From NCBI RefSeq assembly GCF_000384335.2, contig NZ_KQ031382.1, positions 868,001-932,000 on the forward strand: a stretch of 64,000 nt of DNA, given 5' to 3'. The notes beneath the pieces are model-generated. The model was not told where the DNA came from. It was given only the letters and a program-made list of their open reading frames with translations, and ran no database searches. Below, piece by piece: positions 44,873-58,076 of the stretch. The position numbers were made by a program, and so were the translations under genes. Within the stretch, counting starts at the first letter, position 1. Every line of letters begins with the position of its first letter. Source of the stretch: Hyphomicrobium sp. 99 (GTDB lineage: Bacteria > Pseudomonadota > Alphaproteobacteria > Rhizobiales > Hyphomicrobiaceae).

Positions 44873-45595
44873 CCTCTACCTCCCGGTCTCATAAGGGTCT
44901 TGGGACCCGAAAGCTCAGAACATGCGCTCTCGCAATAAAGCTGATAACGCGATGCGGTCAGGGTGCGTCGGCGACAGTCAAATTTTGAAGCGACTTTGCG
45001 GACAACGCCGAGCCCCGCCGCAACAGCAACGGCAGATAAAGGCGATCATAAATGCTCTTTTGAAATGACGTTTCTTTTGGGGGTTTCAAGGACCCACCTT
45101 ATCCTAGCGTAGCTTGGGTGCTTAACGGCGCGAGGACGAAACAATTACGCATACAATCCAAACGAACTGCTCACCGCAGCGCGTCTTGACCATTCACCCC
45201 GAGCGCATCCCATTTGAAGATCGGCCCTTGCTGATCGCATCAGCATTGAATGACCTTTGCCAATTCTGCTGACCAAATTTTATTTAAAAAGACGATGACG
45301 GGATTTTCAGAATGATCCGAACACCGTGCGCTCCTTGCTTATCAAATTGTTCCCTTTGCGCGCGTATTCAAAGTCGGCCGCGCGCTGACGAGCTTTTAGC
45401 GTTAACCCCGGGAGCAGTTGCGGCGAAAAAATGGGGCGCATAGCCTCACTCGTGCTGAAATTTCTGCAACTCGGCGCAACCGCGCTCATATCGAACAGCC
45501 TCTCGCTAACGACAACCTAAGCACGCCAAGCCACGATTTTCTGGCCGATACGCGTCTGCCGATCGGTGAAGTCTCCCAATTGCGAGGAATGCCAA
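44873..45595. other. Intergenic region between divergent RND and P450-like genes
   Basis: 723 bp with no convincing coding frame. It must carry two divergent promoters; no clear operator, RNA gene or repeat stands out. The right end holds the GAGGA ribosome-binding site of the P450-like gene. Confidence 0.5.
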
Positions 45596-47149
45596 ATGGA
45601 ACGAAGAGCATTTTTGGTCGGTACGGCAGCAGCAGCTACAGCGATAACCGCCAAACCCGCCGCCTCTCAACCTCAATCTCCCCCGGCCGCCGGACAGCCA
45701 CTTGCGCCTGGCGATATCGAAGCAGCGGTGGCGCGACTGCGCCAACAGTACCTCGCGGAATTTGACCCGTCGTACGTCGAGAACGTGATCGTTCCGCATT
45801 TTCTCGTGAGCACTTATGCAGGTGAGCGCCTTTTTCTTCCAATGATCGACGTCAAATTCACGAAGGAGAATGCGCTTCCCTACGATCTTTGGGGTTTGCT
45901 GAACGAAGGCTGGAAGCCCGCCCCGCAAGATGGCGTCACCGTCTTTCTGCAGGGGCTGGAAAGGCGAGGTCCGGACAATCGCCGGAAGCGCATCTACATG
46001 TCAGCATTGACGCCGGATTTATATCACCCGATGTACGGCGAGAAGGTCGGCGCTTTTTTCGATAAACTTCTAGACGAGAGCAATGCGAATAAGCCTCTGA
46101 TGCGTCCCTACCTGGAAACGTATTTCGATTTGTACTGGGATTTGCACCTAGGAGTTAAGGGAGATGCAGTCCCCGCGCGCGTCCGTCAAATCGGGGAGAG
46201 TTTCAACACGGTTCTTGCCTATCGCGATCCCACCCAGAAGATCGTCTACGATAACTACATGGAAGTGCGTAAGCACCTTCCCTACCTGAAAGAGTGGATC
46301 GCCCAGAGGATCGCGGATCTCAACAGCGGCGCGACGCCCAATCCAGAAAAGACCTTCACTTATTACTGGATCAAGAATGCGGCCGATGGCGAATATTTTG
46401 CTCACCAGGATGTGGTCTTCGAGGTCTTTCACAACTTCGTGGCGCTGAGCCAGTGGGGCAATACACTCTACAACATCATGCTGATGCTCGCGAGGGACAC
46501 TGGCGATCCGGATACGAAAGCGTGGTTCACGAAGACCATGGAAAGCGATTACGACAACGCTGGAGGCAATGCGTTTACCCCGCTCGAGCGATTTGTCATG
46601 GAACTGTTCCGTACGATCACGCCCAACGGCGGAAGCATCTCTGCGATGCACGAGACGAGAATGCCGCCATTTCAGCGCTTCGGTTACGTCGTCAGCCCGC
46701 ATTGGGACACGAGCTTCGATCCAGTGCAGTGGAAGGATCCCGATAAATTCGATCCCGATCGCTACAACAGCGTACCGACAAGCCATCAAATCGACGAAGC
46801 CAAAGCCGAGCAGATTGGGTTTGCCAAATGCCCGTTCGACAGGACGGCGTTCGATGTACGTGACGGCCGGAAGGCAACGATGCACAATAGCGGCTTTGGC
46901 ACGGTCTATGGCATCGTCGACGAGAAGCCGTTGCCGGTGTGCGACCATGCCGGCTTTGCGTCATTTGGCTTCGGATATCGGCGCTGTCCAGGCGAGCAAC
47001 TTACCATTCAAGTCTTCGAGGACTTCCTGCGGAAGGTATGGAAGAACAAGATCGATTTTCAAAAGCTCAACATCGCCAGCGCCGAGCCGCTGCCGATCGG
47101 TCCCACAACGGTTATCGCTGACAACGTCGGATTTACGCGGATGGTTTAG
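45596..47149 (+). CDS. Tat-exported cytochrome P450-like protein
   Basis: 517 residues from the ATG at 45596 (GAGGA upstream). The N-terminus (MERRAFLVGTAAAATAITAKPAAS) is a short Tat-type signal, unusual for a P450. The heme-binding loop FGFGYRRCPG gives Cys464 as thiolate ligand. The meander motif FDPDRY is present (385-390), and the K-helix region reads MHETRMPPFQRFG. In that region the expected ExxR is replaced by HETR (His352...Arg355). The I-helix candidate (FEVFHNFVALSQWGNT) lacks the acid-Thr pair of monooxygenases, as in peroxygenase or CYP74-like enzymes. No redox partner is adjacent. It probably acts in the periplasm by itself; the reaction is unknown. Confidence 0.74.
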   Translation: MERRAFLVGTAAAATAITAKPAASQPQSPPAAGQPLAPGDIEAAVARLRQQYLAEFDPSYVENVIVPHFLVSTYAGERLFLPMIDVKFTKENALPYDLWGLLNEGWKPAPQDGVTVFLQGLERRGPDNRRKRIYMSALTPDLYHPMYGEKVGAFFDKLLDESNANKPLMRPYLETYFDLYWDLHLGVKGDAVPARVRQIGESFNTVLAYRDPTQKIVYDNYMEVRKHLPYLKEWIAQRIADLNSGATPNPEKTFTYYWIKNAADGEYFAHQDVVFEVFHNFVALSQWGNTLYNIMLMLARDTGDPDTKAWFTKTMESDYDNAGGNAFTPLERFVMELFRTITPNGGSISAMHETRMPPFQRFGYVVSPHWDTSFDPVQWKDPDKFDPDRYNSVPTSHQIDEAKAEQIGFAKCPFDRTAFDVRDGRKATMHNSGFGTVYGIVDEKPLPVCDHAGFASFGFGYRRCPGEQLTIQVFEDFLRKVWKNKIDFQKLNIASAEPLPIGPTTVIADNVGFTRMV

Positions 47150-51023: not shown

Positions 51024-52037
51024 TTAGGTCATCGCCGCCATGGCCGCCGACATGACCGGGCGCAATTGCGCGCCGTCCCGAATGACGAACAACGCCGCAA
51101 TCTCGTTGCGTTCCGCATACGAAATGCCGTCGGCAGGCCCGAGCACCATCAGGGCGGTGGCAAGCGCATCCGCCTTCATGCACGACTTCGCGACAACGCT
51201 GACTGAAGCCAGGCGATTGGCAAGTGGTAGCCCAGTGCGGGGATCGAACGTATGCGCAATGATCTTGCCGCCGATCTCAAACCATCGGCGGTAATCGCCG
51301 GATGTTGCCACCGAGAGGCCGTGCAAAGCGATAAGGAAGTCGCATGATTGTCGGAGCGACTGGCTTTCAATATCGGGCGATTCAATTGCGACCCACCACG
51401 GCTGGTCGCCCCCCTTGAAGCCTTCCCCTCTCAGTTCTCCGCCGATCTCGACGAGAAAATTACGGATGCCTTGACTCAATAAGTCTTCGGCAATTTTGTC
51501 GACCGCGAAGCCTTTCGCAATCGCTGAAAAATCCAGATAGGCGCCGCCCGGCTGATGCACGCGGCGGTTCACTACATCAAGTAGCACGCGTCCCCATCCG
51601 ATCGCAGAACGTGCTTCATTGACAATCTCCACCGGAGGAATCCGAAAGGGATTCGTAATCGGGCCGAACCCCCATGCGTTGGTCAGATGACCAACCGTCG
51701 GGTCAAACGCGCCGCCCGTGTCGGTCGCGATATCGATCGCGGTTTGAATGACGTGGAAGAAGTCATCGGGTAGGTCTTGCCAATGTCCCGCAGGAGCCCG
51801 GTTGAAAACGCTGATGTCCGACGTCGGCAACCAGGTACTCATTTGGGCATTCACCGAGTCTAGGTTCGACAGAATGCGGCGCTCGATATCTTCGGCATTC
51901 GCGCCATCGGGCAGGACGAGATTCGTAGTCCACGTCGCCCCCATGGTCTGGCCGTGAAGGATCGTGATGGCTCCGCTGTGCCGCCGCTCATCATGCGGCG
52001 GCACAGCGATTTGGTGAGGCACGAGAACCGTACGCAT
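51024..52037 (-). CDS. apbE: FAD:protein FMN transferase
   Basis: 337 residues from the ATG at 52037. ApbE fold: TMGATWTTNL at the N-terminus, LDFSAIAKGFAVDKIAEDL (flavin-binding), GGELRGEG, and HTFDPRTGLPLANRLASVSVVAKSCMKADALATALMVLG with the Mg/FAD-binding residues. ApbE attaches FMN covalently to a Ser/Thr in Dxx[ST]GA[ST] motifs of exported proteins. It is the last gene of the iron operon, and the DUF2271 protein two genes upstream carries exactly such a motif. A classical cleavable signal peptide is not obvious at the N-terminus. Confidence 0.9.
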   Translation of the reverse strand: MRTVLVPHQIAVPPHDERRHSGAITILHGQTMGATWTTNLVLPDGANAEDIERRILSNLDSVNAQMSTWLPTSDISVFNRAPAGHWQDLPDDFFHVIQTAIDIATDTGGAFDPTVGHLTNAWGFGPITNPFRIPPVEIVNEARSAIGWGRVLLDVVNRRVHQPGGAYLDFSAIAKGFAVDKIAEDLLSQGIRNFLVEIGGELRGEGFKGGDQPWWVAIESPDIESQSLRQSCDFLIALHGLSVATSGDYRRWFEIGGKIIAHTFDPRTGLPLANRLASVSVVAKSCMKADALATALMVLGPADGISYAERNEIAALFVIRDGAQLRPVMSAAMAAMT

Positions 52038-52060
52038 CACTTCTGACTTCAATTTGGTTG

Positions 52061-52870
52061 TTATTCGGGAAGCACCTCGAGCGTTACCGCGTAGGTAACG
52101 CGACGTTCTTTCGCTTCCTTGACCGTACTCTTATCGTCGGTGATTTCGGCCTCCATCCAATACATGCCGGGTTCTGGCCAAGTGACCGAGAATTTCCCAT
52201 CCTTGTCGGTGGTGGCCGACTGCTCGTCGGGTTTGGTGCGATAGCGTTCACCGCCGCGGGCGATGGCGACCTTCACGTCAGCCGCAGGTTTGCCATCGAT
52301 CTGGAGCACGAACGACGCCGTCGACTTGGCGAAGAGATCGTTGGGGTGCGTGACAGGGATAAGCTCAAGACCCTGGCCTGTTGGCTTCAGCACAACATCA
52401 TTCGGCTTACCTGCCGTCACGAACGTCTCAAGGCGTCGGAGGTTCTGCGTTACCTTCAAGTCTTCAGCGCCCGCCGGAATGTCCTTCGACAGGTTTTCGG
52501 GCTTCCCCCGCCAGCGCTTCCGTTCGCCATTTTCCTTGTAGCTCGCGGAGACCCCGTCGGACACAACTGCCAGCTTATAGGTTCCGGGCTTCGAGAGATG
52601 CACATCGAAAGTGCTGCGGTATTTGCCCGTGGAGGGGTTCTCCGGATTGAGCGCGCTCCCGTCCGGTGCCGTCACGACGAGATTATCGAGGCGGAGCGGC
52701 TGGTGCTCGAAATTGAAGAGACCGTTCGAGATCGCAGCATCGACCGAAATCCATTCATCATTACCGGACAACACCGTGGCAGACGGGAGGAGCCATGCGC
52801 GGTGGGCATCTGCCGAGATCGGCAACACGAGGGCGACGGCGAGTGTGGACCACTTGAGCAGCGGCTTCAT
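52061..52870 (-). CDS. DUF4198 periplasmic protein
   Basis: 269 residues with a Sec signal (LKWSTLAVALVLPISADA). The mature part starts HRAWLLPSATVLSGNDEWISVDAAISNGLFNFEHQPLRL, the HxxWL start that is diagnostic of DUF4198 proteins (linked to metal uptake). A second beta domain with AADVKVAIARGGERYRTKPDEQSATTDKDGKFSVTWPEPGMYWMEAEI is carboxypeptidase-regulatory-like. The N-terminal His after cleavage may bind metal. It lies between DUF2271 and apbE in the iron operon. Confidence 0.85.
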   Translation of the reverse strand: MKPLLKWSTLAVALVLPISADAHRAWLLPSATVLSGNDEWISVDAAISNGLFNFEHQPLRLDNLVVTAPDGSALNPENPSTGKYRSTFDVHLSKPGTYKLAVVSDGVSASYKENGERKRWRGKPENLSKDIPAGAEDLKVTQNLRRLETFVTAGKPNDVVLKPTGQGLELIPVTHPNDLFAKSTASFVLQIDGKPAADVKVAIARGGERYRTKPDEQSATTDKDGKFSVTWPEPGMYWMEAEITDDKSTVKEAKERRVTYAVTLEVLPE

Positions 52871-52900
52871 GGGTTTTCTCCGTAAGGTTGATTGATGAGA

Positions 52901-53413
52901 TTAGTGTTTGATCTCAAGCGATAGCGCGCCGATCTCGCTTTGGCCTTTCGCCTCGAGCTTGGTGGGATTTTCCAACGGCCATTGAAACGGGATGCGAAGA
53001 ACCTCCCGGCCGCCAACCTCGCGTGCCGCTTCCACCACGAGTTCATACTGAACAGGGCTCAAGTCTTTGAGTAGCGGACCGTCACTCGCGAATTCGAGAG
53101 TATGTGTGCCGACCGGGCGAGTTGCACCCGTGACGCCATCAATGGGAACCTTCAGATCGCGACCGGCCCGTCTCCACCATTGACGCAGATCTGCGAGCCA
53201 CTTCTCGCCTTCTTTCTTTTTGTTGGCGACATCATACCAAACGGCAAGATTTGCGGCGACCGAGTGATCCGGACGCTCCACCCATACCGCGATATAGGGT
53301 CGATGATATTCAGCCACATCGAGTTTCGGAATCTCGAGCTGAACTTGCAGATCAGCGCCAAATGCTGGGCTGGCGAGAAGTCCGGTCGCACCCAATGTAA
53401 CCCAAATTCGCAT
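52901..53413 (-). CDS. DUF2271 periplasmic protein with FMN-attachment motif
   Basis: 170 residues from the ATG at 53413 behind GAGGAA. The signal peptide (MRIWVTLGATGLLASPAFG) gives a periplasmic protein. The DUF2271 core includes YIAVWVERPDHSVAANLAVWYDVANKKKEGEKWLADLRQWWRR in outline. Residues 92-98 read DGVTGAT, matching the ApbE flavinylation motif Dxx[ST]GA[ST], so Thr98 is the predicted FMN attachment site. ApbE is encoded in the same operon. Its role is inferred as a flavin electron carrier in periplasmic iron reduction. Confidence 0.85.
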   Translation of the reverse strand: MRIWVTLGATGLLASPAFGADLQVQLEIPKLDVAEYHRPYIAVWVERPDHSVAANLAVWYDVANKKKEGEKWLADLRQWWRRAGRDLKVPIDGVTGATRPVGTHTLEFASDGPLLKDLSPVQYELVVEAAREVGGREVLRIPFQWPLENPTKLEAKGQSEIGALSLEIKH

Positions 53414-53424
53414 GGCGTTCCTCT

Positions 53425-54078
53425 TCAGTGGATCAAAAAGATTGCAATTGCCAATGGCACCCCGATGCCGAAACCAACTAACGGCCATGTCGATGGACGG
53501 CTCTTTGCGAAGAGCTGCAATAAGACGAGGCCCGTGATCGAGAACACCACGCAGGAAACCGCGAATACGTCGATGAACAAGCTCCATGCCGCTCCCGCAT
53601 TGCGACCTTTATGGAGATCATTCAGATACGAGATCCAACCGCGATCAGTCAGTTCCGAACTTGCGGCACCGCTTTTGCGATCAATACTCAACCAGCCATC
53701 GCCGCCGGGGCGTGGCAGCGAAACGTAAACTTCATCGTCGGACCACTCGGCCAACTGATCAGCGACTGCGATGCCCATATGCGCCTTTGCCCAACTGTTC
53801 ACTTCCGCTGGCAACGGTGCTTTCTTTGCTGCCGGATCGGCTTTTAGAAATTCAAGTATCTTTGGTGGAACTATCGCCTCGTTACGGGTGACCACCGCTT
53901 TGGATGATATTGCTGCAGCGTGATTGAGAGTAATGCCCGTCACCGCAAACAACAGCATTCCGATCAGGCTGATGGCGCCGCTAATCCAATGCCATTGCTT
54001 GATCTGCCGCATCCATTCGGCGCGTCTGTTTGAGCGCGCCATGCGCTGGGCCGGTGTTAGCTTGTCGAGCGCGGCCAT
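53425..54078 (-). CDS. PepSY-associated membrane protein
   Basis: 217 residues. Two or three transmembrane helices flank a periplasmic PepSY-like domain: IKQWHWISGAISLIGMLLFAVTGITLNHAA (His near both ends of the helix), then DEVYVSLPRPGGDGWLSIDRKSG, and DLHKGRNAGAAWSLFIDVFAVSCVVFSITGLVLLQL. The helix histidines could bind heme for transmembrane electron transfer, as in siderophore-reductase type PepSY proteins. The start overlaps the previous gene by one base (TAATG). Confidence 0.85.
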   Translation of the reverse strand: MAALDKLTPAQRMARSNRRAEWMRQIKQWHWISGAISLIGMLLFAVTGITLNHAAAISSKAVVTRNEAIVPPKILEFLKADPAAKKAPLPAEVNSWAKAHMGIAVADQLAEWSDDEVYVSLPRPGGDGWLSIDRKSGAASSELTDRGWISYLNDLHKGRNAGAAWSLFIDVFAVSCVVFSITGLVLLQLFAKSRPSTWPLVGFGIGVPLAIAIFLIH

Positions 54079-54872
54079 TACGTTCCGCCTCCTTCGATAG
54101 CGAGCACCACTTGGCGGATCTCAGCAATCGTTGACGTGCGAAGCACAGCCACCACTTCCCGAACAAAATCATCCGGCGCCGTAGCGAGAGATTTGGTCAG
54201 CCATTCGACGGCTTCATCGATACGACCGGCGCGACAAAGATAACGGCTCAAATGAAACTGCCCGCGAAAGCATCCGCGTTCGGCAGCTCGACGATACCAG
54301 CGCATCGCAGAAGAGGGCTTCGCTTGAACATCCCATCCTTCTTCACGGAACCGGCCCAGCATATTCATCGCTTTTGCATTGTCGCGCCGCGCCGATCTGA
54401 GCAACAAGGCGAGCGCGGCGCGATAGTCGCGTGCAACACCAACTCCCTTGACGAGCAAGTTTGCGAGATTGAACTGCGCCCAGTGATCTTGTTTATCGGC
54501 AGCGAGACGGTAGCTGCGCGCGGCTTCAGCGAAATCGACTGGGACGCCCCAGCCTCGCTCGTAGCATCGGCCGAGCATGTTGAGCGCCGCCGGGTCGCCT
54601 TCTCTTGCAGCGATTTCAAACCAACGGAATGCTGCATCGGGATCGCGCTCTGTGCCGTGTCCATTGAGCAGCATGTGAGCCCAAGCGCATTGACTTGCGA
54701 TCGAGCCTTTGAGGGCTCCATCACGCGCCAGCCGCGCTGCTTCGACTGGGTTTTTCAGCTTTTGCTGGACGAAATATTCGAAGCTGACGTGTACGGGAAC
54801 AGTATGCGATATCCGCCAACTGTCGGGCGACTGCGCGAAGTCGTCTTCGTCCAGAGATTCGTCAAAAGTCAA
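54078..54872 (-). CDS. Sel1-repeat (TPR-like) protein of iron operon
   Basis: 264 residues made largely of Sel1-like repeats of about 36 residues: GTERDPDAAFRWFEIAAREGDPAALNMLGRCYERGWGVPVDFAEAARSYRLAADKQDHWAQFNLANLLVKGVGV and so on. There is no signal peptide, so probably cytoplasmic, with a scaffold role. It overlaps piuC by 4 bp and the PepSY gene by 1 bp. Sel1 proteins recur in PiuC/TonB-receptor operons, with an undefined function. Confidence 0.85.
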   Translation of the reverse strand: MTFDESLDEDDFAQSPDSWRISHTVPVHVSFEYFVQQKLKNPVEAARLARDGALKGSIASQCAWAHMLLNGHGTERDPDAAFRWFEIAAREGDPAALNMLGRCYERGWGVPVDFAEAARSYRLAADKQDHWAQFNLANLLVKGVGVARDYRAALALLLRSARRDNAKAMNMLGRFREEGWDVQAKPSSAMRWYRRAAERGCFRGQFHLSRYLCRAGRIDEAVEWLTKSLATAPDDFVREVVAVLRTSTIAEIRQVVLAIEGGGT

Positions 54873-55552
54873 AGTTCGCCCCAGCGTCGCAGAAGATTGT
54901 GATAATGGCTGGTGAGGGCGACGACGGCGCGATTGTCGTCCGGCAGCAACTGCCGAACTTCCATGATGGCTTTGTCGAGCTCATAAAGCATCGTCCGCTG
55001 GCCGTCGTCTTTGACCATGGATTGGGTCCAGAAGAACGACGCCCAGCGGCTGCCGCGCGTGATCTTGCTAACGCTGTGAAGGCTGGTCGATGGATAGACG
55101 ACCATGTCTCCAGCGGGCAATTTGATTGAATGACGGCCATAGGTGTCGTCGATCAGCAGTTCGCCGCCGTCATAGTCTTCGGGTTCCGACAGAAATAATG
55201 TCGATGAGACGTCGGCACGCATCCTCGCACCGGTCCCAGGAATACCGCGGATAGCGCCATCGACGTGTGCGTCGAAGGACATGCCCGTGTCGTAGCGATT
55301 GAACATCGGCGGCAAAACGCGAAACGGCAAGGCGACGGCTGTGAAGGTAGGGTTCCTGCCGAGTGCGCGGAGCACGATATCGCCGACTTCACGTGCAGCG
55401 GCCGAATCTTCGGGAATCTGAAGATTGTGCTTGGCTTTTCCCGCTTGTTCCCCCGCGGTTACTTTGCCGTCAACCCAACTGGCCTCTTCAAGAATTTTCC
55501 GGCATCGAGAAATCTCTTCGGGAGAGAGCACTCCCGAGATGCGAACGAGCAT
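54869..55552 (-). CDS. piuC: PiuC-type Fe(II)/2-oxoglutarate-dependent hydroxylase
   Basis: 227 residues, the normal length. The 2-His-1-Asp triad is seen as FDAHVDGA (His and Asp) and STSLHSVSKITRGSRWASFFW with the distal His and the 2-oxoglutarate-binding Arg. PiuC/PKHD-type hydroxylases are co-encoded with TonB-dependent siderophore receptors and are thought to modify siderophores or assist iron release. It lies 74 bp after the receptor gene and is coupled to the Sel1 gene. Confidence 0.92.
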   Translation of the reverse strand: MLVRISGVLSPEEISRCRKILEEASWVDGKVTAGEQAGKAKHNLQIPEDSAAAREVGDIVLRALGRNPTFTAVALPFRVLPPMFNRYDTGMSFDAHVDGAIRGIPGTGARMRADVSSTLFLSEPEDYDGGELLIDDTYGRHSIKLPAGDMVVYPSTSLHSVSKITRGSRWASFFWTQSMVKDDGQRTMLYELDKAIMEVRQLLPDDNRAVVALTSHYHNLLRRWGEL

Positions 55553-55625
55553 TCCTTCTTAACTCCACAACGAATAATGGGGAGCGCGGGGTGCGCTCTC
55601 CATGCAATTGGCTCGTAGATGACGA

Positions 55626-58076
55626 TCAGAACTTCACGCCTGCGGTGAACGTAACCGAGCGGCCGGCACCCGGCGTGGCGCGAGACGAGAACGCGTTCTC
55701 GCCCTGGAAATAGCCGTCGTAGTACAGCTCATCCGTCAGATTGTAGCCGTTGAGCGCGAAGCGATAACGGTCGATCTCGTAGGAAACCATGCCGTTGAAC
55801 ACCAACGTTTGCGGCAACTTATTAGTCTCGTCATTGCGGATAAACATATCCTGGGCGTAGGTCACGCCGCCGCCAACCAAGAGCTTGCCCGGTACGTTGA
55901 TCAGCGAAGCAACGTCATACGTCGTCCAGAACGTTGCGGCATTCTCCGGAACGCCGGGGACGTGATTGCCGATGAGAGTTGAGTCATTCGCGAACCTGAT
56001 CTCGGAGTCCATGTGGGTGTAGGCGACAGCGACCATCCACTTGTCGGTGACCATGCCATTCACGCCGATCTCGACGCCTTCAACGCGCTGCTCCTCGCCC
56101 GATTGGACGATGCTTCCATCGGGTTGAGTGTAATAGGCATTCGACTTGTCGACGCGGAACGCCGCGGCCGAGATGCCTATTCTGCCGTCGAGAAGCGACC
56201 ACTTGGCCCCGATCTCGTAGGACTCGTTTTCTTCAGGACTGAGGGTATCCTGACCGGCCGTGGTACCGATCGGATTCACGCCCTGAGTAATAAACTGCCC
56301 AGCCGGTGAAGAGGAAGTCGCCCAAGACACATAATAGGTCTGCTGCTTGGTCGGCTCCCAGATTGCGCTGAGCTTCGGGCTCCAGAAGGGGGTATAGGAA
56401 CCGACTTCCGGATTCCAAACGCCCGTCGTCGTATTGGTCCATGAATAGTTGGCCTGATAGGCGTCCCAACGAATACCGCCGAGCAAAGAGAACTCCGGCG
56501 TGAGCCACATACGATCGCTCGCGAAGAGGGCATAGTCGGTCGCATTTGCCGCCTTCTTGTTGAGCGGATTGGGAACAACGACGTAGTTGTCGCTCGAGTA
56601 GTTGGGGTTCTGCAGCGTGCCGGGGATCTTCGTCGCAGCCCCGCCCGTGGTGGGGTTCACGTAACGCCCCGCGATGCGATCGTCTTCCTGGTGGAAGACG
56701 TCAAATCCCGCGACGGCCTCATGACGGAACCCGCCCACGTTGAGCTTCGCGATTGCTGTTGTGATATTCTGGAAGCCCCAGCTCTCCTGTTCGTATGAGC
56801 TGCCGCCACCGGCGCCAAAATAGTAGGGTGAATCGCCCGCCGGTCCGAAGAACGCTGCGCTACAGCCGTCAGTGGCGACGTTATTGACCGTCAGCGCACA
56901 GTTCGCCGCTGTCGTGCTGATATCGCGATCGAAGAATTCCAAGCGCGTGTCGTTGTTGATCGTCAGCCACGGATTGACTTTCTTCGTCAAGCGAGCGGTC
57001 AGCATGTCGACGGTCGTCTGGTCCCGGTCCGTGTCCTTGCCGAAATAATTGGATCTCGGAACTCCGAATTCCGTCGACGGCAAGCCAACCGTTGTGCCCG
57101 GCGCGCGCAGGAACGGCACGCCATAGTCCGGTACACGATCGTTCTCCTGATGGAGATAGTTGACCGTCAGCTCGGTATCGGTCCCTAAACCGAAGCCGAT
57201 GGAGCCCAGGAAGCCCCAGCGATCGGAATAGACGTGATCGCGGTCGGCAATGTCCTGATTGTGATACATACCGACGGCGCGCGCGGCTGTCGTCGCGTTG
57301 ATCTGCTTGTTGACGTCGATGATGGAGCGGACGAACGAATCCGAGCCGACCGTGATTTCCGCGCTGTTTGCATCACCCAAATGGGCGTTCTTCTGGCGAA
57401 GATTGATAGCGCCACCGGTGGTGCCCATGCCGAAGCTTTCGGAAGACGGGCCTTTCAGCACATCGACCTGCTCGAACGCGAAGCTATCGCGCACGTACAC
57501 CCCGAAGTCGCGCAGGCCGTCGACATAGAGGTCGCCCTTGGCATCGAAGCCGCGGATGCGGAACTGGTCGCCGTTGAAGCCGCCGTTACCCTCTCCGACC
57601 GTCACCGTAACGCCAGGTACCGTGCGCAGCGCCTGATCGATGGTCGTCAGGTTCTGCTCCTGGAGCTGCTGCTGTGACACGACATTCACGATCTGCGGCG
57701 TGTCCTGATACGTGCCCGGCAGACGGCTAAGGCCAGTACCGGACTGCAGCGTATTGCCGCTCGCCGGCGTCACGCCGGAACCCGATCCCTCGGAGCTGGC
57801 TGCCGGAAGCGGAGCCACGGGGTTTGCGGTGCCCTCCGTCCCAGACGGAGGAGCTTTCTTCTGAGCGACCTTCTTCTTCTGCTTCTGCGATTTCGATACA
57901 ACTTCGACTGGAGGCAGCGACGTTTCAGGCGTCTGCGCCATCTGTGCGCTCGCGCCACCGGCGAGGAACGCGGATGCTACACCAAGCGACAATGCGCCCA
58001 GGCCAGCTTGCTCTGATTTTCCGGAGTTTGATTTTCCGACGGCGCTCCAGCCCCGCGCCGATTCGTGTCCGAGCAT
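55626..58076 (-). CDS. TonB-dependent siderophore receptor (Fiu/catecholate type)
   Basis: 816 residues: a long signal region ending ASAFLAGGASAQ, a Lys/Pro-rich linker, and a likely TonB box region (SLPPVEVVSK). The plug domain contains LPGTYQDTPQIVNVVSQQQLQEQNLTTIDQALRTVPGVTVTVGEGNGGFNGDQFRIRGFDAKGDLYVDGLRDFG in outline, followed by a 22-stranded barrel. The final strand (RSVTFTAGVKF) ends in Phe, as required for BAM insertion. It resembles Fiu-like receptors for monomeric catecholates. It is the first gene of the iron operon. Confidence 0.92.
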   Translation of the reverse strand: MLGHESARGWSAVGKSNSGKSEQAGLGALSLGVASAFLAGGASAQMAQTPETSLPPVEVVSKSQKQKKKVAQKKAPPSGTEGTANPVAPLPAASSEGSGSGVTPASGNTLQSGTGLSRLPGTYQDTPQIVNVVSQQQLQEQNLTTIDQALRTVPGVTVTVGEGNGGFNGDQFRIRGFDAKGDLYVDGLRDFGVYVRDSFAFEQVDVLKGPSSESFGMGTTGGAINLRQKNAHLGDANSAEITVGSDSFVRSIIDVNKQINATTAARAVGMYHNQDIADRDHVYSDRWGFLGSIGFGLGTDTELTVNYLHQENDRVPDYGVPFLRAPGTTVGLPSTEFGVPRSNYFGKDTDRDQTTVDMLTARLTKKVNPWLTINNDTRLEFFDRDISTTAANCALTVNNVATDGCSAAFFGPAGDSPYYFGAGGGSSYEQESWGFQNITTAIAKLNVGGFRHEAVAGFDVFHQEDDRIAGRYVNPTTGGAATKIPGTLQNPNYSSDNYVVVPNPLNKKAANATDYALFASDRMWLTPEFSLLGGIRWDAYQANYSWTNTTTGVWNPEVGSYTPFWSPKLSAIWEPTKQQTYYVSWATSSSPAGQFITQGVNPIGTTAGQDTLSPEENESYEIGAKWSLLDGRIGISAAAFRVDKSNAYYTQPDGSIVQSGEEQRVEGVEIGVNGMVTDKWMVAVAYTHMDSEIRFANDSTLIGNHVPGVPENAATFWTTYDVASLINVPGKLLVGGGVTYAQDMFIRNDETNKLPQTLVFNGMVSYEIDRYRFALNGYNLTDELYYDGYFQGENAFSSRATPGAGRSVTFTAGVKF

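Follow-up and report, generated by a model that had tools for sequence, protein, structure and literature searches.

A P450-type protein with a conserved twin-arginine signal and without the I-helix acid-threonine pair in Hyphomicrobium sp. 99

To our knowledge, the bacterial P450s characterized so far are cytoplasmic. In CYP74, the Cys loop is altered and longer. We know of no export signal in CYP120A1 (2ve3), a cyanobacterial P450 with weak sequence similarity (E = 0.063) to the protein described here. The vast majority of P450s need NAD(P)H-driven partners, according to excerpts of PMC5818669. The CYP152 enzymes (P450 BSbeta, CYP152K6, and OleT) have the P450 fold and a Cys-ligated heme and lack the I-helix acid-Thr pair, features shared by our protein; the same excerpts describe an Arg-Pro at that site, which binds the fatty-acid carboxylate, and an altered Cys loop (PMC5818669). 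Excerpts of PMC13049297 report an Asn in the I-helix of PGIS, plant AOS, LDS, and EAS, and call PGIS and the fungal CYPs self-sufficient. They also note that this Asn can be done without and that its position is taken by Thr or a nonpolar residue in other self-sufficient CYPs. Fungal DOX-CYPs are fused to a heme dioxygenase, whereas the protein described here is 517 aa long and has PF00067 as its sole Pfam domain. Finally, bacterial unspecific peroxygenases (BUPO) are heme-thiolate, peroxide-driven enzymes, many with signal peptides, that are structurally unrelated to P450s, as described in part of PMC13394420. The heme-thiolate character and the signal peptide of BUPO are shared by our protein, which alone of the two has the P450 fold.

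The gene lies in a 64,000-nucleotide stretch of the Hyphomicrobium sp. 99 genome (4.1 Mb, G000; RefSeq assembly GCF_000384335.2, contig NZ_KQ031382.1, here C3, positions 868,001–932,000 of the forward strand), which is called the window below. Its features, in window coordinates, are as follows.

45584–45588, + strand: Shine-Dalgarno-like GAGGA, read from the sequence, 7 nt 5' of the ATG at 45596.
45596–47149, + strand: coding sequence for the P450-type protein (open frame, 517 codons plus stop).
45596–45670, + strand: Tat-type signal region, residues 1–25 (MERRAFLVGTAAAATAITAKPAASQ), from alignment A1, Tat pattern tests, and the tree.
46403–46486, + strand: I-helix candidate, residues 270–297, broken at 285 (DSSP on the AlphaFold model).
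46430–46462, + strand: I-helix motif HNFVALSQWGN, H279–N289, substituting for the acid-Thr pair (conservation, profile alignment).
46580–46618, + strand: K-helix, residues 329–341 (DSSP on the AlphaFold model).
46601–46612, + strand: ExxR, E336-L-F-R339 (conservation, AlphaFold model, profile alignment).
46649–46660, + strand: HETR, residues 352–355, past the K-helix; a stretch misread as the ExxR site.
46748–46765, + strand: meander FDPDRY, residues 385–390 (sequence reading, conservation).
46772–46951, + strand: family-specific stretch from the meander to the Cys loop, residues about 393–452 (gap pattern of the profile alignment).
46964–46996, + strand: heme Cys loop FGFGYRRCPGE, residues 457–467, with Cys464 at 46985–46987 (conservation, profile alignment).

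The open reading frame proposed in an earlier sequence-only reading of the window was borne out. The gene is apparently solitary: the upstream neighbor, an AcrB-type pump gene, is on the opposite strand and points away, and the downstream neighbor, a glycosyltransferase-like gene, is convergent. The nearest named relatives are from Hyphomicrobium. A Pfam search of the host genome found four other P450s and missed the window protein. Elsewhere in the window, a run on the − strand (51024–58076), about 4 kb from the P450-type gene, contains ApbE, DUF4198, DUF2271, and PepSY_TM genes, followed by Sel1-repeat, PKHD-type hydroxylase, and TonB-receptor genes, and resembles an extracytoplasmic flavin/iron redox set.

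A search with the window protein gave 1,390 proteins at E ≤ 1e-3 among the 8,000 candidates scored. Conservation was assessed in 287 distinct sequences, comprising 240 search matches (the best 120 of each of two protein searches), 46 loci, and the window protein. By fold and motifs, the window protein is a P450. The AlphaFold model, built from 47 sequences and heme-free, has a P450 fold with a mean pLDDT of 86.5 and a pTM of 0.88. The FGFGYRRCPG heme loop and the FDPDRY meander recognized in the sequence-only reading are both present. Cys464 occurs in all 287 sequences, as do G458, Y461, and R462, and the FxxGxRxCxG loop is further conserved at R463 (286), G460 (283), F457 (277), and G466 (271). 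The claim of that reading that HETR stands in place of ExxR did not hold. Alignment revealed a normal ExxR elsewhere in the K-helix, the very outcome that the reading had named as counting against it: ELFR at residues 336–339 lies in the predicted K-helix, and E336, R339, and C464 are jointly present in 287/287 sequences. In profile alignments with 25 ordinary P450s, ELFR coincided with their ExxR whichever of three templates and two modes was used (best E = 2e-12); it also did so against the four other P450s of the host genome, and it aligned with the K-helix region in CYP120 and CYP1A2. A P450 without ExxR was therefore rejected on conservation, model, and profile alignment. At the HETR site, H352 is His in only 4 of the 287 sequences, E353 is Glu in 155, and R355 is Arg in 200; this Arg is common, yet HETR follows the K-helix and is thus not the ExxR.

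The PF00067 score of the window protein (21.2 bits, E = 1.4e-4) is below the gathering score of 22.8, and all 47 members of alignment A2 match this model at E ≤ 1 (best 2.8e-8); we consider this near miss outweighed by the P450-type fold and motifs. The stretch at residues of about 393–452 exceeds its counterpart in the aligned ordinary P450s by approximately 45–50 residues, and D423, G424, and R425 within it are found in 287/287 sequences. DUSP10 and other non-P450 chains, which appeared in the PDB sequence searches at E ≥ 0.014, were taken as chance matches.

The sequence-only reading had also noted that the I-helix candidate lacks the acid-Thr pair, and both the profile alignments and the 287-sequence conservation agree. 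A283-[LF]-S-Q286-W-G-N289 stands where A-G-x-D/E-T-T is usual; H279, A283, and Q286 are found in all 287 sequences, G288 in 286, S285 and W287 in 285 each, and N289 in 266. The register hangs on a one-residue gap, and the model is heme-free: with the gap, which both profile alignments chose, Q286 takes the place of the conserved Thr, and in the ungapped register Q286 is at the acid place and W287 at the Thr place. In either register, no acid-alcohol pair is left. PGIS (CYP8A1), plant AOS (CYP74A), and fungal LDS/EAS likewise have one or more I-helix amides, according to excerpts of PMC13049297, and the register of the Gln/Asn may differ. Because the same excerpts describe self-sufficient CYPs in which the Asn is dispensable or absent, the amide is no proof of mechanism. 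A further likeness to the hydroperoxide/endoperoxide CYPs is a lipoxygenase gene beside one relative, considered below; unlike them, the window protein is bacterial and has a Tat signal and an ordinary FxxGxRxCxG loop. Membership of CYP74 was rejected, as the FGFGYRRCPG loop is ordinary and has no insertion within it.

The Tat-like signal RRAFLVG seen in the earlier reading was confirmed at residues 3–9, where a twin-arginine motif and a hydrophobic stretch are present, and every one of the 29 sequences in alignment A1 has both R3 and R4. Residues 1–35 of the AlphaFold model have pLDDT values under 50. A strict Tat pattern was found in 95 of the 120 best matches of the first search, compared with 16 of 6,000 shuffled N-termini; it was found in 21 of the 46 aligned loci and in 1 of the 120 best matches of the divergent search. 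The 25 first-search sequences that missed the pattern were mostly short or differently started records, and P0069, P0105, P0114, and P0121 failed solely on the ban on charged residues. A looser test labeled 27 of the 47 A2 rows. These automatic labels are rough: L035 was truncated by the chosen start, upstream of which RRHFLAGG can be read, and L022 and L028 escaped the lipobox pattern. In a midpoint-rooted tree of the 47 rows, built from the core without the signal region, the Tat rows formed a single group of 28 rows (support 100/99), with one outsider, L077 (Falsiroseomonas). Within the group, only L035, with its cut start, and L061, which is apparently signal-less, were labeled as lacking Tat. 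L077 is a long branch of unsure placement, and with the midpoint root its Tat motif could reflect either a second acquisition of the signal or losses. In the mycobacterial members (L022, L027, L028, L030, L046, L081, and others), a Cys read by eye follows the hydrophobic stretch, an arrangement that appears to be that of Tat lipoproteins.

These data also bear on the explanation that the Tat signal is inactive and the enzyme cytoplasmic, or that the protein binds heme as a sensor or store and has no catalytic role. Export of the window protein is predicted from its sequence signal, and the cyanobacterial, Chloroflexi, and Myxococcota relatives have the same core and no Tat signal, so the chemistry itself appears independent of the periplasm. 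The twin arginines, however, are kept despite diverse N-termini, as the comparison of the best first-search matches with the shuffles shows, and the signal recurs in L077, outside the main clade. Moreover, two relatives on plasmids are annotated as “twin-arginine translocation signal domain-containing protein,” and 82 positions are invariant across the 47 sequences of A2. We therefore regard a cytoplasmic or non-catalytic protein as quite unlikely.

The family is widely and patchily distributed. Relatives were found in Alpha-, Beta-, and Gammaproteobacteria, Mycobacterium and other actinobacteria, Cyanobacteria, Ktedonobacter (Chloroflexi), Nannocystis (Myxococcota), and others. In the phylum sample, 1 of 398 genomes had a relative, namely that of the window itself; in the taxonomic family sample, the number was 5 of 103, all of the same genus and including the host; and among 292 cyanobacterial genomes, only the seed itself carried one. 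Three of 72,556 plasmid records carry a relative. In two of these plasmids (L186, Paraburkholderia ginsengisoli, and L187, Serratia fonticola), the relative lies amid IS/transposase genes with a “transporter” gene directly 3', a pair that is like a small mobile module; P. ginsengisoli is also the species of locus L047. In L018 (9956–11545) and L074 (9875–11508), the relative is split into two overlapping or adjacent frames, by decay or sequencing error. The contig of L072 was assigned to a Nitrososphaeraceae archaeon, yet its relative groups with Ktedonobacter proteins; the contig may be mis-binned.

We analyzed the neighbors of the relatives at 85 loci (L005–L089), each with a relative and flanks of up to 10 kb; near-duplicates are among them, and in 25 loci one or both flanks are shorter than 3 kb. 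The contig scan had found 100 relatives, of which 80 loci were kept. The first neighbor clustering used a crude longest-ORF caller, prone to spurious ORFs where GC content is high. No conserved operon from which a substrate could be read was found; the neighbors vary from genus to genus. In the mycobacterial loci L028, L030, L046, and L081, a homologous membrane/kinase-like protein of 750–770 aa is encoded next to the relative or a few kb away; that of L030 had no Pfam match at E ≤ 0.01, and in L028 and L030 it is followed, as read by eye, by a response-regulator-like gene.

The most frequent partner identified was a homolog of the outer-membrane barrel PF13557, a family named for phenol degradation, which adjoins the gene in 9 of the 85 loci (L016, L032, L036, L039, L041, L042, L047, L048, and L082). 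This barrel might admit an external hydrophobic compound to a CYP152-like peroxygenase in the periplasm, for which the oxidant would be H2O2, as opposed to a lipid hydroperoxide that undergoes rearrangement in the reaction. CYP152 peroxygenases are indeed among the best fold and PDB profile matches of the window protein, with 21 of 50 Foldseek rows and a weak CypC match; the TM-scores of the Foldseek fold matches are about 0.5–0.6, and the top row by VIA Z is CYP109B4, which is no peroxygenase. The window protein differs from CYP152, however, in its canonical Cys loop, Tat signal, and long stretch ahead of the Cys loop, and in having S285-Q286-W287-G288 in place of the carboxylate-binding Arg-Pro described in excerpts of PMC5818669. 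At columns 283–289, neither Arg nor Pro occurs in any of the 287 sequences, save one R at 287. The NCBIfam CypC model gave a score of 19 bits, where its cut-off is 600; membership of CYP152 was rejected on the missing Arg-Pro and on this score. In addition, no barrel homolog was found in the host genome at E ≤ 1e-20. A CYP152-like, H2O2-driven enzyme is therefore an unlikely explanation.

Two loci have dioxygenase-type neighbors. In L066, a lipoxygenase gene (PF00305, E = 2.9e-52) lies 108 bp downstream of the relative, and in L074, a RoxA-like gene lies upstream; each is the sole such case among the 85 loci, which counts against the explanation that we prefer. The RoxA group takes in the periplasmic pair PA2077/PA2078, an oleate 10S-dioxygenase and a diol synthase, according to excerpts of PMC4496055. 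In L066 (9851–15723) and in L126 (Oscillatoria sp. SIO1A7), there is an apparent run of P450 relative, lipoxygenase, and TPP-enzyme-like protein, which in L126 also includes an FAD amine-oxidase-like protein, the latter two proteins being identified by eye; in the other lipoxygenase regions examined, no P450 relative was found beside the lipoxygenase. Co-occurrence was examined in 55 relative-bearing genomes (50 contig loci and five Hyphomicrobium). Lipoxygenase was found in 10, RoxA-like protein in 6, and animal-type heme peroxidase in 13, counts that do not support a dioxygenase partner throughout the family; the barrel was found in 7, six at ≥ 59% identity and one at 31%. None of these three enzyme types was found in the five Hyphomicrobium genomes; the window's own genome (G000) yielded no lipoxygenase, no animal-type heme peroxidase, and, at E ≤ 1e-20, no RoxA-like homolog. 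In cyanobacteria, 6 of 10 relative-bearing genomes had a lipoxygenase compared with 45 of 291 background genomes (Fisher one-sided p = 0.0022, a test that ignores genome size and kinship), with loci L040 and L062 left out of the former and G536 removed from the latter. This co-occurrence is no more than a hint.

A different source of oxidizing power was considered in view of a ferric-reductase-like gene that encodes NAD and FAD domains and lies within 2 kb of the relative in L022 and L032; the two proteins are 43% identical, and their hosts belong to distant phyla. Such a gene would suit an electron-driven enzyme, i.e., an ordinary O2-dependent monooxygenase that receives its electrons in the periplasm, for example from a ferric-reductase-like membrane protein or from some other donor outside the cytoplasm. 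The canonical Cys loop with its nearly invariant R462 and R463 fits this explanation, as does the PepSY/DUF2271/ApbE set 4–7 kb downstream in the window. Nevertheless, a close ferric-reductase homolog occurs at only 2 of the 85 loci, with L027 adding a weak and incomplete match at its edge; the 85 loci yielded no homologs of the PepSY, DUF2271, DUF4198, and ApbE proteins of the window (E ≤ 1e-4, flanks ≤ 10 kb); and the acid-Thr pair that activates O2 is missing across the family. The electron-fed monooxygenase is less likely, and we give it only a small chance.

Based on these results, the first interpretation, a periplasmic and partner-independent enzyme acting on peroxides, is partly supported: its premise of a missing ExxR was wrong, and the conserved, tree-clustered Tat signal and the absence of the acid-Thr pair stand. 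As a hypothesis, the remainder also draws on the invariant I-helix amide, on the many fatty-acid peroxygenases among the fold matches, and on the lipoxygenase gene beside one of the 85 relatives. We give about an even chance to an exported, self-sufficient heme-thiolate enzyme that uses hydroperoxides or H2O2 and needs no NAD(P)H-driven partner. Points against it are the rarity of dioxygenase genes both beside the relatives and in their genomes, the negative searches of the host genome for such genes and for the barrel, the low Foldseek TM-scores, CYP109B4 as the top VIA Z row, a canonical Cys loop unlike that of CYP152, the dispensable Asn of PMC13049297, and the ferric-reductase-like neighbors. 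Outside the cytoplasm, the helper proteins on which P450s usually depend are not to be expected, so such an enzyme may run on peroxides, and partner-free peroxide chemistry outside the cytoplasm is the most economical mechanism; the Cys loop, being of the ordinary P450 type, gives no argument for partner independence. The protein would fold with its heme in the cytoplasm, be exported by the Tat route, and act in the periplasm without redox partners. There, the ferric heme on Cys464 would meet the O–O bond of an organic or fatty-acid hydroperoxide or of H2O2, and Gln286, with Asn289 nearby, may position or polarize the peroxide instead of an acid-Thr relay. The reaction would yield either an oxylipin formed by rearrangement or a hydrophobic molecule that has gained oxygen. 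Our best guess at the oxidant is a lipid hydroperoxide, in view of the amide in the I-helix and of the lipoxygenase and RoxA-like neighbors; as no hydroperoxide source was found in the host genome among the families searched, H2O2 with a foreign substrate is still a reading of the data.

A bolder version, which we put forward tentatively and hold to be doubtful as a whole, is a bacterial counterpart of CYP74/DOX-CYP: an exported, partner-free P450 clade with an invariant Gln for the relay Thr, which would isomerize or cleave periplasmic lipid hydroperoxides and would pass between proteobacteria and mycobacteria, in part coupled to an outer-membrane channel as a mobile pair. Among the matches listed in our keyword search of the open-access literature, with subscription journals mostly outside its range, we recognized no description of an exported bacterial P450. 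Judged from sequence, the window protein belongs to a little-noticed P450-type group with a predicted export signal. If this is true, P450 chemistry would extend beyond the cytoplasm in the proteobacteria and mycobacteria of the Tat-signal clade, which would offer partner-free catalysts for testing.
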